Of a stretch of DNA of 64,000 nucleotides, positions 5,334 to 64,000 are shown in pieces. Origin of the DNA: an uncultured Fodinibius sp. (GTDB lineage: Bacteria; Bacteroidota; Rhodothermia; Balneolales; Balneolaceae); the NCBI GenBank assembly GCA_913056455.1, contig CAJXMJ010000003.1:217149-281148 (forward strand), given 5' to 3'. A program made the position numbers and the translations under genes. The notes below the pieces were generated by a model that saw only the letters and a list, made by a program, of their open reading frames with translations, did not search any database and was not told the DNA's origin. Each line of letters opens with the position of its first letter. Position 1 is the first letter of the stretch.

Positions 5334-5870
5334 CTATTTATTCCATCCCTGTACACCTTCCAGAAGTGCATCGTCTAAATCATGGTTAGGATCGTCATGA
5401 TGAAGTACTGCTATGTCACCGGTTGACTCCATTACTACGGCCTGTACCTGGGTCATCTTTGTTACATTTGCTTCCCGAAGCTTAGCTCGTAAATCGGAGT
5501 GTGTTACTTTCGCTCTTTTTAAGTTCTCTTCAATAATTTCCGTGTTTTTCATTAGTAGCAATGGTTCATTATCAACCAATTTGCGCATTATTGCAGAATT
5601 GCCTCGGAAATAAGCTACAAGCATCTGGATTCCGAAAAGTGATCCCATCGCAACCGCGGCATGTACTAAAGATGGAGGCCTGAATAAAATAGTACTGGCC
5701 AGGACAGAACCAATAGCGACCGTGATAGCAAAGTCAAAACTCGACATTTTGGAAAAAGAACGAAGGCCGGATATGCGGGTGAATACAATTAAAACAATAT
5801 AAATACCAATTGTTGATATAAGCGCCATAAAAACGGTCTGCCAAGAGGTAAAAATCCAAGAACTATCCAT
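5334..5870 (-). CDS. DUF421 (YetF-like) membrane protein
   Basis: The 178-residue protein has three N-terminal membrane helices (residues about 12-30, 45-65 and 70-88) around the family signature TRISGLRSFSKMSSFDFAITVAIGS. A cytosolic YetF-type domain follows (NEPLLLMKNTEIIEENLKRA, then RAKLREANVTKMTQVQAVVMES). DUF421 proteins are inner-membrane proteins of uncertain function, some linked to spore or envelope physiology in Bacillus. This copy is short but has both halves. It converges on the M14 gene with a 168-base gap in which I see no gene or clear terminator. Confidence 0.88.
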   Translation of the reverse strand: MDSSWIFTSWQTVFMALISTIGIYIVLIVFTRISGLRSFSKMSSFDFAITVAIGSVLASTILFRPPSLVHAAVAMGSLFGIQMLVAYFRGNSAIMRKLVDNEPLLLMKNTEIIEENLKRAKVTHSDLRAKLREANVTKMTQVQAVVMESTGDIAVLHHDDPNHDLDDALLEGVQGWNK

Positions 5871-6162
5871 AATAAACTCTATTTGTATTTTTAAACAAGT
5901 CTGATGAAGGTTGTGAAGAGAAAGAAACTAATTCTGAACTTATATCATAGTATCAGTACATATTCGATTAATCTAAAATTATCCACGCAACCCTGTATTT
6001 ACTCATAAATAGCATGCTCCTGAGATAGAATAAATATTTCTGATAAGGTTGTAGGATCTTTGATGTGATTTCTATACAAGAATCCTGTTCAACGTGATTG
6101 TTTTATGTTAAGAGTGGTGTTCGAGGATACGCACCTGAGCCTATTAATTTTTCAAACTTATT
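5871..6162. other. Intergenic stretch without a recognisable gene
   Basis: This AT-rich divergent spacer lies between the DUF421 gene and the TPP-regulated receptor. I find no open frame with a plausible ribosome site, no tRNA and no repeat. The right end runs into the receptor promoter described next. Confidence 0.6.
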
Positions 6163-47772: not shown

Positions 47773-48945
47773 ATGTCATTATCAAATAGGGATAAGATTG
47801 CAGGAAAAATATCATACGACGAAAAAACAAGCAGTAGTCTTCAAATTCTGCTGAAAAATATCAGCAGTGTTAATAGGGCTGTTGAGCTTAACACTGTTTT
47901 GCGAGAGAGTGTTGAGGTTGTACAAAACGTGATGAATGCAGAAGCCAGTTCTTTAATGCTTTTGGATGAAAATACCGATGAGTTAATTATAAGCATGCCT
48001 ACGGGTCCGGTTAGAAAAGAGGTCAAGGGCAAAAGAATTAAAAAAGATGAGGGTATCGCAGGATGGGTTGTTAAAAAGGGAAAGCCATTCTATTCAAATG
48101 ATGTAACTGAAAGCGATTTGTTTGACGGTGATATAGCTGAAGATTTCACCAGTGAAAACATTATCTGTGTACCTCTTCGAGACAGCCATAAAAAAGTGAT
48201 TGGAGTGTTACAGGCTATAAATAGGCGCGATAGTGATTTTACTGATCAGGATATTCCGGTATTTGAGGCACTGGCCGATCATGTAGCATTAGCGATTGAA
48301 CGGACCAAAGAATTGCAGGAAGCTCAAAACAAGATCGAAGAACGAGATTTAATGCTAACGGAGGTACATCACAGGTTAAAGAATAATTTATCTACGATAA
48401 CCGCGCTAATTGAACTGGAGCTACCTGATATTGAGGACCAGACGGCAAAGGAAACGTTACAGAAAACGATGGCTCGTATTAAATCAATGACAGAGGTCCA
48501 TGATTTTCTGTATAACAATAAGCCTGGTAATGAGATTAGGTTAAAGTTATATGTCGAGCGATTGTCTGATAAGATTGCTAACATTCTTTCACATGCCTCT
48601 CAAGATGTTAAAATAAAAGTTAAGGCTGATGATGTATCTCTGGATACCGATCGCGCCATGAGTTGTGGATTACTGCTCAACGAATTATTGGTTAATTGCT
48701 ATAAGCATGCCTTTAGTAATGAAATCGAAAATCCCAGGATTATTATTGAGCTTCGGGAAATAAATAATGAGACTATTGAGTTTAAAGTTTCTGATAACGG
48801 GACCGGAATTGGCGAAGATTTTTCTATTACAGAGTCAGGTTCCATCGGGGGATGGCTTATTGATGTCCTTATTCGCAGACTTGAGGCAAACATAGATATT
48901 CAACGAGGGGACGGGACAACTTTTTTAATTCGTTTTGACAAATAA
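47773..48945 (+). CDS. GAF-domain sensor histidine kinase of the HisKA_2 type
   Basis: The 390-residue soluble protein has an N-terminal GAF domain (about 25-175, with VVQNVMNAEASSLMLLDENTDELI and VPLRDSHKKVIGVLQAINR). A HisKA_2 core has the H-box LTEVHHRLKNNLSTITALIELE near residue 198, N-box LLLNELLVNCYKHAF and G-box KVSDNGTGIGEDF. It is similar in core type to the PAS kinase at 10.6-13.3 kb. No response regulator is adjacent; it lies between acnA and the PKS operon and converges on the latter, nine bases away. Confidence 0.92.
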   Translation: MSLSNRDKIAGKISYDEKTSSSLQILLKNISSVNRAVELNTVLRESVEVVQNVMNAEASSLMLLDENTDELIISMPTGPVRKEVKGKRIKKDEGIAGWVVKKGKPFYSNDVTESDLFDGDIAEDFTSENIICVPLRDSHKKVIGVLQAINRRDSDFTDQDIPVFEALADHVALAIERTKELQEAQNKIEERDLMLTEVHHRLKNNLSTITALIELELPDIEDQTAKETLQKTMARIKSMTEVHDFLYNNKPGNEIRLKLYVERLSDKIANILSHASQDVKIKVKADDVSLDTDRAMSCGLLLNELLVNCYKHAFSNEIENPRIIIELREINNETIEFKVSDNGTGIGEDFSITESGSIGGWLIDVLIRRLEANIDIQRGDGTTFLIRFDK

Positions 48946-48954
48946 GGGGGCAGT

Positions 48955-50127
48955 TTAAATGGGCCATCGCTCAATGCCGCGCATCGTAAATATATTCGCC
49001 ATAAGTTGAGAGATAGGAGACTTTAGCATAAGAGAAACCAATATTTTTCGAAAAAAAGGGGTATTTATTTTTCTGCCTAATTTCATGTTCATTTCTGCTC
49101 TTCGGATAGCCACTTTAGCGGCGTGGACTCTGCGTTTTTGATATTGATTTAGGATGGTATCTTTCTGTAAATTATTATATAGCGCCTGAGGTAATGTTTC
49201 TGCTAAATCACGGGCATCAAGCCATCCTAAGTTCATTCCCTGTCCGCCTATGGGGCTAACGATATGAGCCGCATCCCCAATTAAAATTATACGCCCTTTA
49301 ACCATAGGATCGGCCAACAGTTTTTGTACCCCAAAGCTACTGAGCATCGTATGTTCGGTATTGTTCATAGAATGACCAATTCTGCTCAAAACGCTTGAGG
49401 TCAGTTGCTCTCTTGAAACCTGATCAACATAATCATCTGTTTTGACAACCCACCGACGGCGATTATTGGGTAATGGAAAAGACTCAATGAGCCCTTTGTC
49501 ACATAAAAAAATAGCTGCATCAGAACCGAACTGGGTGTTATCAGTAAAATCTCCCATAATATACGTATCGGGATAGTATTGTCCTTTAAAAGAAATGCCA
49601 GACTGCCTGCGAATCGAGCTGTTTTTTCCGTCACATCCTACAAGGTACTCAGCTTTGGCAGTATGTTTTTTTCCTTTGTATTCAAAATGGACGTCGACAT
49701 GGTGTGCATGCTCCCTAATGGTATGGACTGTTGCGTTACGGAGCAGAGCGCTGGTATTTTTTTCAGTCAAGGCTTGTTCCAGCAACAATTCAGTTCGGTA
49801 TTGAGGAAGAGCCAGAATAAAGTTGAATGGTTTTGGACAGCTTTTAAATGATAGAACGCCCAGCTTTTTTTTATTTAAAAAGGTGTGTCCTTTTTGAATT
49901 GTAACTCCATCACGAATAAAACTGCTGGCTATATTCAACTCCTCAAATAATTCCAGTGAGACTGGATGAATACCCAACGACCGCGAGCCGGGGCGTGGTG
50001 CAGATCTCTTTTCGAGGATGATATAGGAAATACCTGCCTGCTCAAGACACAAGCCAAGGTAGAGTCCCACCGGTCCTCCACCAACAATAACTACCTGGTA
50101 TGTATTAGAAAAGTTATTCGTGGTCAT
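48955..50127 (-). CDS. FAD-dependent monooxygenase of the type III PKS operon
   Basis: The 390-residue flavoprotein has the FAD dinucleotide loop VVIVGGGPVGLYLGLCLEQAG, the DG motif in EYLVGCDGKNSSIRRQ and the GDAAHIVSPIGGQGMNLGWLDARDLA box of class A aromatic hydroxylases. A phenol-type substrate is expected. It overlaps the methyltransferase gene by 14 bases, so it is the third gene of a coupled operon with the type III PKS. By analogy with the Streptomyces srs operon it would hydroxylate a resorcinol or related lipid to a hydroquinone or quinone; that step is inference. Confidence 0.9.
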   Translation of the reverse strand: MTTNNFSNTYQVVIVGGGPVGLYLGLCLEQAGISYIILEKRSAPRPGSRSLGIHPVSLELFEELNIASSFIRDGVTIQKGHTFLNKKKLGVLSFKSCPKPFNFILALPQYRTELLLEQALTEKNTSALLRNATVHTIREHAHHVDVHFEYKGKKHTAKAEYLVGCDGKNSSIRRQSGISFKGQYYPDTYIMGDFTDNTQFGSDAAIFLCDKGLIESFPLPNNRRRWVVKTDDYVDQVSREQLTSSVLSRIGHSMNNTEHTMLSSFGVQKLLADPMVKGRIILIGDAAHIVSPIGGQGMNLGWLDARDLAETLPQALYNNLQKDTILNQYQKRRVHAAKVAIRRAEMNMKLGRKINTPFFRKILVSLMLKSPISQLMANIFTMRGIERWPI

Positions 50128-50809
50128 AGGTTAACAATAGTCGAAAGGGGAAGAGGTTTTGTACTTTCCAGTTCGGCGGGACAATCGCTTGTAATTCTTT
50201 TTGGGTGTAGCTTCGTTTAATGGAAGTAAGTCCATCTTCGGTTATGAAGGAACTGCGAAAAATAGGTCGTGAGAAAATATTAAAAAAAAGATAAGCCCAG
50301 TCGCTGCGACGGAGATCATTAAAAATAACAGAAGTCGTGCTTAGTGCACGAGATTGTTTTAAAATGTTATGAAGCTCTTCGATTTTGAGATGATGTATGA
50401 GATGATTAGAAATTACGAAATCAAACTGTTCTTCAGAGGGATTTAATTCGGAAATACCACATTGCAAAAACGTTATATTTGGAGGATAATCAAGCTCCGC
50501 CACAAAGTTTATGGCCCGTGGATCAGGATCTACAGCTGTAATGGAAAGATTAAATCCATCTTCTGTAGCCCATCGAGTCAATGCAATTGGAATATCGCCG
50601 CCTCCAAATCCAATATCCAGAAGGGTATTTGGGGCGTTATGCTGCAGCTGTGGACGAATTTTAGATTTGTAAATATAGCTCCATTGCGAAATCCAGGCGT
50701 TGACTCGTCCAAATTGGTGGTAGGTATTTTGGAGTTCATCCGGATCACAATCGCGGCTATCCATGCGTTCCCGGCTTTCAGTATCCCGCTGAGATAGAAA
50801 CAAAGGCAT
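50114..50809 (-). CDS. Class I SAM-dependent methyltransferase of the type III PKS operon
   Basis: I use the ATG at 50809, which overlaps the PKS stop as TGATG; the track uses a TTG one codon upstream. The 231-residue protein has the SAM loop LLDIGFGGGDIPIAL, an acidic ITAVDPDPRAI and FDFVISNHLIHHL. It fits small-molecule methyltransferases. Its likely substrate is the phenolic product of the adjacent PKS (O- or C-methylation). The classical srs methyltransferase is of a different, membrane type, so this is an analogous and not an identical arrangement. Confidence 0.88.
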   Translation of the reverse strand: MPLFLSQRDTESRERMDSRDCDPDELQNTYHQFGRVNAWISQWSYIYKSKIRPQLQHNAPNTLLDIGFGGGDIPIALTRWATEDGFNLSITAVDPDPRAINFVAELDYPPNITFLQCGISELNPSEEQFDFVISNHLIHHLKIEELHNILKQSRALSTTSVIFNDLRRSDWAYLFFNIFSRPIFRSSFITEDGLTSIKRSYTQKELQAIVPPNWKVQNLFPFRLLLTYDHE

Positions 50810-51918
50810 CAATTTGGTTGAATTTTTTGAAGGAGTCCGCTTTCGATGGTTAAGCCGGGACCAAAAGCCATCGCCAGAACAATTTCCTGATTTTGCGAAG
50901 CCGGCTGATCTAACAACTCTTTAAGTACAAATAGGATCGTAGCGCTACTCATATTTCCATATTCTGCCAGTACTTTTCTTGATGGAGATATCTGTTTTTC
51001 TTCAAGTCCAAAGTTTTTCTGTACTTTATCGAGAATTGCACGTCCGCCGGGATGTAGTGCCCAGTGATTGATATCATTTGCAGTAAGTTGGTAGTCGGTA
51101 AAAAGTGGTTGGATAGACTGTCTGAGATTTGCCTCAATAATATCTGGGACATAGGTAGATAATACCATATCAAAACCGGTATCGCCGATCGTCCATGCCA
51201 TATCTTTTTCACTTTCTTGGGCGATAGCAGTAGAAAATTGGGTCAGCTCGAAACTGCTGGTAGCTTGTGGTTTATTACTGTTGATTATTACTCCTGCTGC
51301 ACCATCAGCAAACACAGATGCGGAAATCAAGTTATCGGTGACTTCCGAGGGTTGCAGATGGATCGAGCAGAGTTCGAGACAAACGATAAGAATATTTGCA
51401 TCAGGTTGAGAGGTGCAAAATGATTTGGCCATCTTCATTGCGGGAAAAGCGGCAAAACATCCCATGAAGCCAAGATGAAAGCGCTGTGTAGAGGTTGGTA
51501 ACCCCAGTTTTTGGATGATTTCAAATCCGGGTTCCGGGGCAAAGAATCCAGTGCAGGAAACGGTAATAACGTGGGTAATATCAGCACGATCAACGTTCGG
51601 ATTTTCGTCAATCGTTTGGCGGGCCGTTTCTACAAAAAGCTCCTTGGCTTTTTGGGTGTATAACTTATTTCGAGCTCCGGTAGAAGGTACGTTTAGGGTG
51701 CCATCCTCTTGAAAGAAAAATCGGGGATCGCCGTTGGCATTAAAATCTGGAATAACGGTATGACGTTTGTCAATGCCTGACTTTGAATAAATGCGATGGA
51801 TAATACGCTGCGTAATTTCTTTATCGCTGATATATTCCTTCATGCGGTCACGCAAAAAGGCCTGATCATATGAGCGTTCAGGAACCACTGTGGAAATATT
51901 TTGAATATATGCTGACAT
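50809..51918 (-). CDS. Type III polyketide synthase (chalcone/alkylresorcinol-synthase-like)
   Basis: The 369-residue ketosynthase has the complete type III PKS triad: C154 in GFMGCFAAFPA, H289 in WALHPGGRAI and N322 in EYGNMSSATI. The late GPG loop reads AFGPGLTIESGLL. It lacks an acyl-carrier protein, consistent with direct use of acyl-CoA and malonyl-CoA. Chain length and cyclisation (resorcinol, pyrone or phloroglucinol) cannot be read from the motifs. It is the first gene of a coupled PKS-methyltransferase-hydroxylase operon; a MATE exporter gene follows upstream on the same strand. Confidence 0.93.
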   Translation of the reverse strand: MSAYIQNISTVVPERSYDQAFLRDRMKEYISDKEITQRIIHRIYSKSGIDKRHTVIPDFNANGDPRFFFQEDGTLNVPSTGARNKLYTQKAKELFVETARQTIDENPNVDRADITHVITVSCTGFFAPEPGFEIIQKLGLPTSTQRFHLGFMGCFAAFPAMKMAKSFCTSQPDANILIVCLELCSIHLQPSEVTDNLISASVFADGAAGVIINSNKPQATSSFELTQFSTAIAQESEKDMAWTIGDTGFDMVLSTYVPDIIEANLRQSIQPLFTDYQLTANDINHWALHPGGRAILDKVQKNFGLEEKQISPSRKVLAEYGNMSSATILFVLKELLDQPASQNQEIVLAMAFGPGLTIESGLLQKIQPN

Positions 51919-51994
51919 CTACCACTATAATTAGAGGATTAGAGAATGTACTCTATAATACCCTAATTTTGTGGTAAAAATTCCGAATTCCTAA

Positions 51995-53350
51995 TTATGA
52001 CCTATTTTTTGTGAGCAGGTAAAATCGGATATTGTGTAAAATAGCGGCGATTGTCAGGCCGGCAATGAGTCCCATCCATAATCCCTGGGGACCAATACCG
52101 CGAGTAATTCCTAAATAATACCCAAGTGGCAGTCCCACCATCCAGTAGGCAATAAAATTAACGACCATAGGTACGGTGGTATCTTTAAGGCCGCGCAATG
52201 CACCGTAACCGCTGACTTGCAGTCCGTCCGAAATTTGGAAGATAGCGGCCATATATAGCAGACTGACTGCTACTTTTTGTACTTCCGCATCCTGAGTGTA
52301 CATGCTGGTAATGAGTTCGGGGAAGAGGTACATAATTATAGCGGTAATACTCATAAAAAAGGTAGCCATGGTAATACCAAGATAGCCTCGCTTGCGAGCT
52401 TCACTTATTGACCCCTTACCGATGGCATTACCGACGCGTGTAGTAATAGCCGTTGAAAGTCCGAAGGGGACCATAAAAGTCATCGCTGAAAAGTTAATGG
52501 CGACCTGGTGGCCGGCTACGGCCACAGCGCTAAGTGATCCCATCAGCAGGCTGACAAGAGCAAACATAGTGACTTCCATAGTAGAACTGAGTCCGATTGG
52601 GATGCCCACCTGCAGAAGTTCTTTTAGGTACTTCCATTCCGGAAGCCGCCAAGTAGAAAAGATTTCGAATCGGTCGTAAGGTTTGTGATTCATGGTAAAA
52701 AGAAGCATTCCCAAGAACATTACATAACCTACGAGTGAGGAGGCGTATCCGCATCCGACCGCACCGAGTTCAGGAAAACCCAGTTTCCCATACATTAACA
52801 CATAGTTGGCTCCAATATTGACAAAGACCCCGACGAGGGCGAAGTACATGGCCGGACGTGTTGCTGACATCCCTTCGTTAAAAAAGCGCAGGGCCATATA
52901 TCCACAGACGCCGAAAACACCCCATGAAATAGCATTCAGGTATCCTTGTGCAAGCGGAATAATATCCGGCGTTACATCAAGAAAATGCATGACAAACTCA
53001 AGATTACGAATAAGAAAAAAGATGGGAACAGCCAGCATCAGGCAGAGCCACAAACCCTGCCGGACATTAACACCAATTTTATCGAAATTACGTCCGCCAA
53101 CATGTTGCGCTACGATAGGAGTGAGAGCCATAAGCGTACCCGCAGCAAGCATCATAAAAGGCATAAAAACAGCCCCGCCCACAGCTACTGCCGCAAGATC
53201 TTGTGCAGAAAGGTTCCCTGCCATCACGGTATCCACAAAGTTCATCGACATTTGTAAGAGTTGGGCGATGATTACCGGCAGACCGATCTTTAGTGTAATG
53301 CCGGCCTCTTTACGAAGGCTATATTTTTCGGATTTCAAATAAGCGAGCAT
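51995..53350 (-). CDS. MATE-family efflux transporter
   Basis: The 451-residue protein has twelve membrane helices and the MATE/NorM features GLPVIIAQLLQMSMNFVDTVMAGNLSAQDLAAVAVG, VGIPIGLSSTMEVTMFALVSLLMG and VAGHQVAINF. It exports organic cations or planar compounds using a sodium or proton gradient. It is 77 bases upstream of the type III PKS and on the same strand. It could export its product, but MATE genes are common and the link is only positional. Confidence 0.93.
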   Translation of the reverse strand: MLAYLKSEKYSLRKEAGITLKIGLPVIIAQLLQMSMNFVDTVMAGNLSAQDLAAVAVGGAVFMPFMMLAAGTLMALTPIVAQHVGGRNFDKIGVNVRQGLWLCLMLAVPIFFLIRNLEFVMHFLDVTPDIIPLAQGYLNAISWGVFGVCGYMALRFFNEGMSATRPAMYFALVGVFVNIGANYVLMYGKLGFPELGAVGCGYASSLVGYVMFLGMLLFTMNHKPYDRFEIFSTWRLPEWKYLKELLQVGIPIGLSSTMEVTMFALVSLLMGSLSAVAVAGHQVAINFSAMTFMVPFGLSTAITTRVGNAIGKGSISEARKRGYLGITMATFFMSITAIIMYLFPELITSMYTQDAEVQKVAVSLLYMAAIFQISDGLQVSGYGALRGLKDTTVPMVVNFIAYWMVGLPLGYYLGITRGIGPQGLWMGLIAGLTIAAILHNIRFYLLTKNRS

Positions 53351-63609: not shown

Positions 63610-63681
63610 GCCAGCGTAGCTCAGGGGTAGAGCAGCTGTCTTGTAAACAGCCGGTCATCGGTTCGAATCCGGTCGCTGGCT
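63610..63681 (+). tRNA. tRNA-Thr(TGT)
   Basis: GCCAGCG pairs with CGCTGGC, the anticodon loop is CTTGTAA between GCTGT and ACAGC, and the T loop is GGTTCGAATCC. The anticodon is TGT. The CCA end is not encoded. Confidence 0.97.
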
Positions 63682-63744
63682 CACTTGGTTCGTCGAGTAT
63701 TCTGAAAGTTTGGCTGAAATTAATTTTGACATACTGATTTCGCT

Positions 63745-63827
63745 GGGGGGATACCAAAGTGGCCAACTGGGGCAGACTGTAAATCTGTTGGCGTGAGCCT
63801 TCGTAGGTTCGAATCCTACTCCCCCCA
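63745..63827 (+). tRNA. tRNA-Tyr(GTA)
   Basis: GGGGGGA pairs with TCCCCCC, the anticodon loop is CTGTAAA, and a class II long variable arm precedes GGTTCGAATCC. The anticodon GTA identifies tyrosine. Confidence 0.97.
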
Positions 63828-63833
63828 CATTAA

Positions 63834-63906
63834 GCGGGCGTAACTCAATTGGTAGAGTGTCACCCTTCCAAGGTGAATGTTGCCGGTTCGACTCCGGTCG
63901 CCCGCT
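63834..63906 (+). tRNA. tRNA-Gly(TCC)
   Basis: GCGGGCG pairs with CGCCCGC, the anticodon loop is CTTCCAA between TCACC and GGTGA, and the T loop is GGTTCGACTCC. It begins six bases after tRNA-Tyr. Confidence 0.96.
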
Positions 63907-63930
63907 CAGCCCCATGCGGGATACGCACAA

Positions 63931-64000
<70 letters not shown>

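Follow-up and report, generated by a model that had tools for sequence, protein, structure and literature searches.

In srsABC of Streptomyces griseus and pkqABC of Mycobacterium smegmatis, a type III polyketide synthase (PKS) gene is followed by genes for a methyltransferase and a flavin oxidoreductase or hydroxylase, and these operons yield methylated alkylbenzoquinones (PMC9927152, PMC5916927). The three-gene PKS-methyltransferase-flavoprotein operon is a broader pattern than srsABC, and includes pkqABC, the hierridin operon hidABC and operons of planctomycetes. The PKSs of the planctomycete operons made 5-pentadecyl- and 5-heptadecylresorcinols in C. glutamicum from C16 and C18 acyl starters, and when the methyltransferase and oxidoreductase were added a probable C-methylated form was obtained (PMC10896814). 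A tryptophan at the position of ArsB residue 281 is reported to be conserved in the alkylresorcinol formers ArsB, SrsA, FtpA, PKS10 and PKS11 (PMC5916927), and has been linked to resorcinol formation (PMC9927152).

The window, the whole 64,000-nucleotide stretch of DNA analysed here, comes from the genome of a Fodinibius/Aliifodinibius relative in the family Balneolaceae, and carries a trio of genes with the same three activities in the same order as srsABC and pkqABC, to which we liken it by their published descriptions. The likeness extends to a tryptophan of the window PKS at the ArsB 281 position; the differences are that the window trio is from another phylum and that its host genus has MK-7. 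As in hidABC and the planctomycete operons, the three activities are in a single operon, but Paludisphaera and most hid clusters have the order methyltransferase, oxidoreductase, PKS, and the flavoenzyme there scores 56 bits against PF01494, compared with 197 for that of the window. The operon is of a kind already known, and what is new is its distribution, not its mechanism.

Table 1. Features of the PKS locus, in order of transcription (window positions; residue numbers are those of the PKS)
Feature	Position	Strand	Remarks
MATE efflux transporter	51995..53350	(-)	451 aa; MatE 234 bits, TIGR00797 343 bits, over cut-off
MATE-PKS intergenic gap	51919..51994	(-)	76 bases; too weakly defined for a promoter call
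Type III PKS	50809..51918	(-)	369 aa; Chal_sti_synt_C 100 bits and Chal_sti_synt_N 81 bits, over cut-off
PKS catalytic triad	C154 51459-51457, H289 51054-51052, N322 50955-50953	(-)	from alignment
PKS W242	51195-51193	(-)	from alignment
Class I SAM methyltransferase	50114..50809	(-)	231 aa from ATG; Methyltransf_25 46 bits, over cut-off
Class A flavin monooxygenase (aromatic hydroxylase type)	48955..50127	(-)	390 aa; FAD_binding_3 197 bits, over cut-off

All four genes in Table 1 are open throughout and lie on one strand. The PKS and methyltransferase genes overlap by one base, the last of the PKS TGA stop codon being common to the methyltransferase ATG, and the methyltransferase stop codon lies inside the flavoprotein gene, giving an overlap of 14 bases. 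These three genes and both overlaps had been listed in a preliminary description of the locus and are confirmed on the open reading frames; that description also had the MATE gene upstream on the same strand, as found, but 77 bases away, one more than the actual gap. A scan of this gap for promoters gave no consensus sites clearly above those of shuffled sequences. Beyond the end of the flavoprotein gene, a GAF/histidine-kinase gene (47773-48945) is convergent to the trio. The GC content of the trio is 0.421 and that of the window 0.427, so a recent foreign origin, which was considered, finds no sign here and was rejected.

The window PKS is the sole PF00195 gene of its genome. Close relatives, in a scan with this one protein that reached no further than these, are Aliifodinibius salipaludis (90% PKS identity) and Fodinibius halophilus. 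A PKS is present in 85 of 92 Balneolaceae genomes (64 of the 66 of good quality), and in 79 of the 85 the PKS, methyltransferase and flavoprotein genes run colinearly on a single strand; measured between the aligned ends, the median gaps are 14 and 17 bases. Some of the remaining cases are contig breaks, for example in G061, where the contig ends 490 bases past the PKS. The trio is therefore not a chance arrangement, and its earlier description as a three-gene operon is supported. Colinear trios are also found beyond the family, in sister Balneolales and in Rhodothermia family f9, and on plasmids of Deinococcus and Microbacterium. Type III PKS operons are usually classed as accessory secondary metabolism, and the present one is near-core throughout a family; together with the strongly supported close clade on Deinococcus plasmids (see below), this suggests a physiological role rather than an occasional ecological one.

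The Deinococcus plasmid trios (e.g., M7777_RS15120-15130 of D. radiodurans), of which our literature search found no study, have the same gene order and a PKS of the same clade as the window trio; identities are 46-49% for the PKS, 39-46% for the methyltransferase and 40% for the flavoenzyme. They differ in having no MATE gene and in having a phospholipase D-like gene downstream with one gene between, which in D. radiodurans encodes a glycosyltransferase. In two of these plasmids the phospholipase D-like gene was located on the same strand, downstream of the trio (L047, 9227-10714; L048, 8482-10011), and this neighbour is possibly a lipid-remodelling link.

Both chalcone/stilbene synthase domains (N and C) of the window PKS exceed their curated cut-offs, which makes it a type III PKS, and the complete Cys-His-Asn triad previously read from its sequence was found as C154, H289 and N322. 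In the alignment residue W242 coincides with W230 of Pks11 from M. tuberculosis, and a tryptophan occupies this site in all aligned relatives of the window PKS clade; the site is Tyr in THNS and Leu in a pks18-like protein (7cb3). This tryptophan is supportive of the resorcinol type but is not decisive, because it is shared by PKSs paired with ICMT-type methyltransferases and is replaced by Leu in CylI, which has been placed among the alkylresorcinol-making cyanobacterial enzymes (PMC8086630). A maximum-likelihood tree of 80 rows places the window PKS in a clade (support 100/99) with those of Balneolaceae, other Balneolales, Rhodothermia family f9 and Deinococcus, and a 98/89 split parts it from THNS (1u0m), a PhlD-annotated protein and Pks11, which thus belongs to another clade in spite of the shared tryptophan; the pks18-like rows (7cb3) are also outside the window clade. 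The preliminary description had proposed alkylresorcinol-type and not RppA-type chemistry, and had named a grouping with RppA as the result that would speak against it. No such grouping was seen in this tree, from which SrsA, ArsB, FtpA, HidC and AgqA were left out, and the tree position and Trp242 support the proposal. Assignment as RppA/THNS was accordingly rejected on the 98/89 split and the Tyr of THNS, and assignment as PhlD because the PhlD-annotated protein lies across that same split. Of the NCBIfam models for type III PKSs, that of DpgA (3,5-dihydroxyphenylacetyl-CoA synthase) scores highest with the window protein, but this assignment was likewise rejected: the score of 174 bits is far below the equivalog cut-off of 425, there are no dpgBCD partners, and annotated DpgA branches far off in the tree. 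ArsB and ArsC were not among the PDB matches listed for the PKS, and an AlphaFold model of it made from six sequences (mean pLDDT 48) was discarded.

The methyltransferase has the SAM motif DIGFGGG at residue 65 and belongs to NCBIfam NF004851 (PRK06202; score 281 bits, cut-off 243), an equivalog model that carries no functional name ("hypothetical protein"). Among 60 genomes sampled from the class, a member of NF004851 (E <= 1e-30) is present in 40 of the 42 that have a type III PKS and in none of the 18 that lack one; the Fisher probability of about 2e-13 is overstated because the sampled genomes are related. In several Rhodothermia the NF004851 gene is unlinked to that of the PKS and both are retained. 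NF004851-like methyltransferase genes are also found beside or near PKS genes in a planctomycete, alphaproteobacteria and Psychrobacter, with scores below the cut-off (232 bits, just below it, in Paludisphaera). Judged by this co-occurrence, NF004851 enzymes seem to accompany type III PKSs generally, in different phyla and also when unlinked, and we suggest the name type III PKS-associated methyltransferase for the family. Since it tracks the PKS whether linked or not, the module consists of a PKS, an NF004851 methyltransferase and a flavoprotein. A structural model of the methyltransferase (pLDDT 75) matches many class I methyltransferases by Foldseek at TM ~0.5-0.6, including Coq5, METTL6 and UbiG, so the structure is compatible with C- as well as O-methylation.

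The flavoprotein matches PF01494 over the full length of the domain (residues 10-343), has all three of the expected GxGxxG, DG and GD motifs (GGGPVG at 16, CDGKNS at 165 and GDAAH at 284), and its PDB matches are headed by class A hydroxylases. A strong class A hydroxylase is the flavoprotein kind of the Balneolia and Deinococcus trios. A flavoprotein gene follows the unlinked NF004851 gene in three of the five Rhodothermia loci read (L135, L137 and L138), and in the two of these that were scanned (L137 and L138) it is geranylgeranyl-reductase-like and not a class A hydroxylase. The flavoprotein is thus of at least two kinds, which are swapped within one module. The window flavoprotein matches the planctomycete trio flavoenzyme at 38 bits, a level at which orthology is not demonstrable. 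In three genomes of genus g2 (G006, G007 and G008) the flavoprotein gene has in-frame stops or is on another contig, and in G006 the match shows both; decay of the hydroxylation step and assembly error are both possible causes.

The best explanation of the trio, to which we give a probability of about 0.7, is that the three genes form an operon dedicated to the synthesis of a methylated alkyl-phenolic lipid, in which an alkylresorcinol would be converted to a methylated alkylhydroquinone or quinone. The PKS would load a fatty acyl thioester starter, for which iso-C15 is a candidate because iso-C15:0 is the main fatty acid reported in a Fodinibius species, together with the quinone MK-7 (PMC12260241). 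It would then add three malonyl units from malonyl-CoA and close the ring by aldol condensation, giving a 5-alkylresorcinol or resorcylic acid. The NF004851 enzyme would add a methyl group, either to the ring itself or to one of its hydroxyls, and the class A flavoenzyme would, probably as the later step, introduce a further hydroxyl on the ring, giving a methylated alkylhydroquinone that could be oxidised to the benzoquinone. The reading is built on the enzyme families, the catalytic residues, the tryptophan, the colinear conservation and the co-occurrence of methyltransferase and PKS, and from these we infer the starter, the order of steps, the O- or C-methylation, the product and the role of the trio. 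A phenolic lipid or quinone, as predicted earlier from the sequence, remains the most reasonable candidate product.

What such a product would do, and whether the ring is a phenol at all, can be read in several ways. It may be a structural membrane phenolic lipid, an alkylresorcinol or its methylated form, that protects against salt, desiccation and oxidants, with hydroxylation a mere modification; we regard this as a serious contender with a little under an even chance. Close homologues are found in halophilic Balneolaceae and in Deinococcus, and in the two Deinococcus plasmids the trio precedes the phospholipase D-like gene, but those neighbour genes are not conserved elsewhere and the link to stress is ecological, not experimental. 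It is a more tentative suggestion, with the odds against it, that the product is a redox-active polyketide quinone, an electron shuttle beside menaquinone as in M. smegmatis. The three activities are those of pkqABC, the near-core conservation suits a housekeeping role and the flavoenzyme is of the true ring-hydroxylase type; however, no respiratory gene adjoins the trio, and the presence of menA over its cut-off in this genome and of MK-7 in the genus leaves no quinone gap to fill. Fodinibius chemotaxonomy records MK-7 only, by a method designed for respiratory (isoprenoid) quinones (PMC12260241); should these halophiles make a polyketide quinone, the published account of their quinones is incomplete. 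The bolder conjecture that all Balneolaceae, and the Deinococcus strains of the same clade, have, besides menaquinone, a second redox carrier in the membrane, an undescribed methoxy-alkylquinone of polyketide origin that isoprenoid-only chemotaxonomy has missed, is unlikely. That the PKS makes mainly alkylpyrones or some other ring, later modified by the methyltransferase and flavoenzyme, seems to us quite improbable: cyclisation is not fixed by the sequence and the tryptophan also occurs in the ICMT-paired PKSs, but the pyrone-type relatives (7cb3/pks18-like) have Leu at that site and fall outside the clade, and a phenol suits a class A hydroxylase better than a pyrone does.

The same weighing applies to the MATE transporter, which had been taken as an exporter belonging to the system. 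In 76 of the 83 genomes that have both genes it is directly upstream of the PKS on the same strand, often 47-150 bases away, as would suit a product exporter in a four-gene operon. Across these genomes, however, the distance ranges from 47 to 6290 bases, in G046 the MATE gene is divergently oriented (L132) and in G063 it and the trio are on different contigs. In G036 (L126) and G090 (L127), which have the MATE gene but not the PKS of the trio, MATE and aconitase genes are adjacent with no trio between; in G089 the MATE-aconitase pair persists with the trio located on another contig (L128, L129). Nor is there a MATE gene beside the trios of several other families of the class or of Deinococcus. 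The trio thus moves as a unit while the MATE gene stays with aconitase as a conserved chromosomal neighbour. An exporter role within a four-gene operon is therefore very unlikely; the location and presence of the MATE gene are independent of the trio, and it is probably not part of the pathway, the operon being one of three genes. The empty site in L126 (bases 5857-5935) is clean, with some 80 bases between the ends of the aconitase and MATE genes. The window ends in a tRNA cluster (63610-64000) at the end of its contig; in many relatives the PKS is about 12 kb from a contig end, which suggests a conserved repeat beyond the tRNAs, perhaps an rRNA operon.
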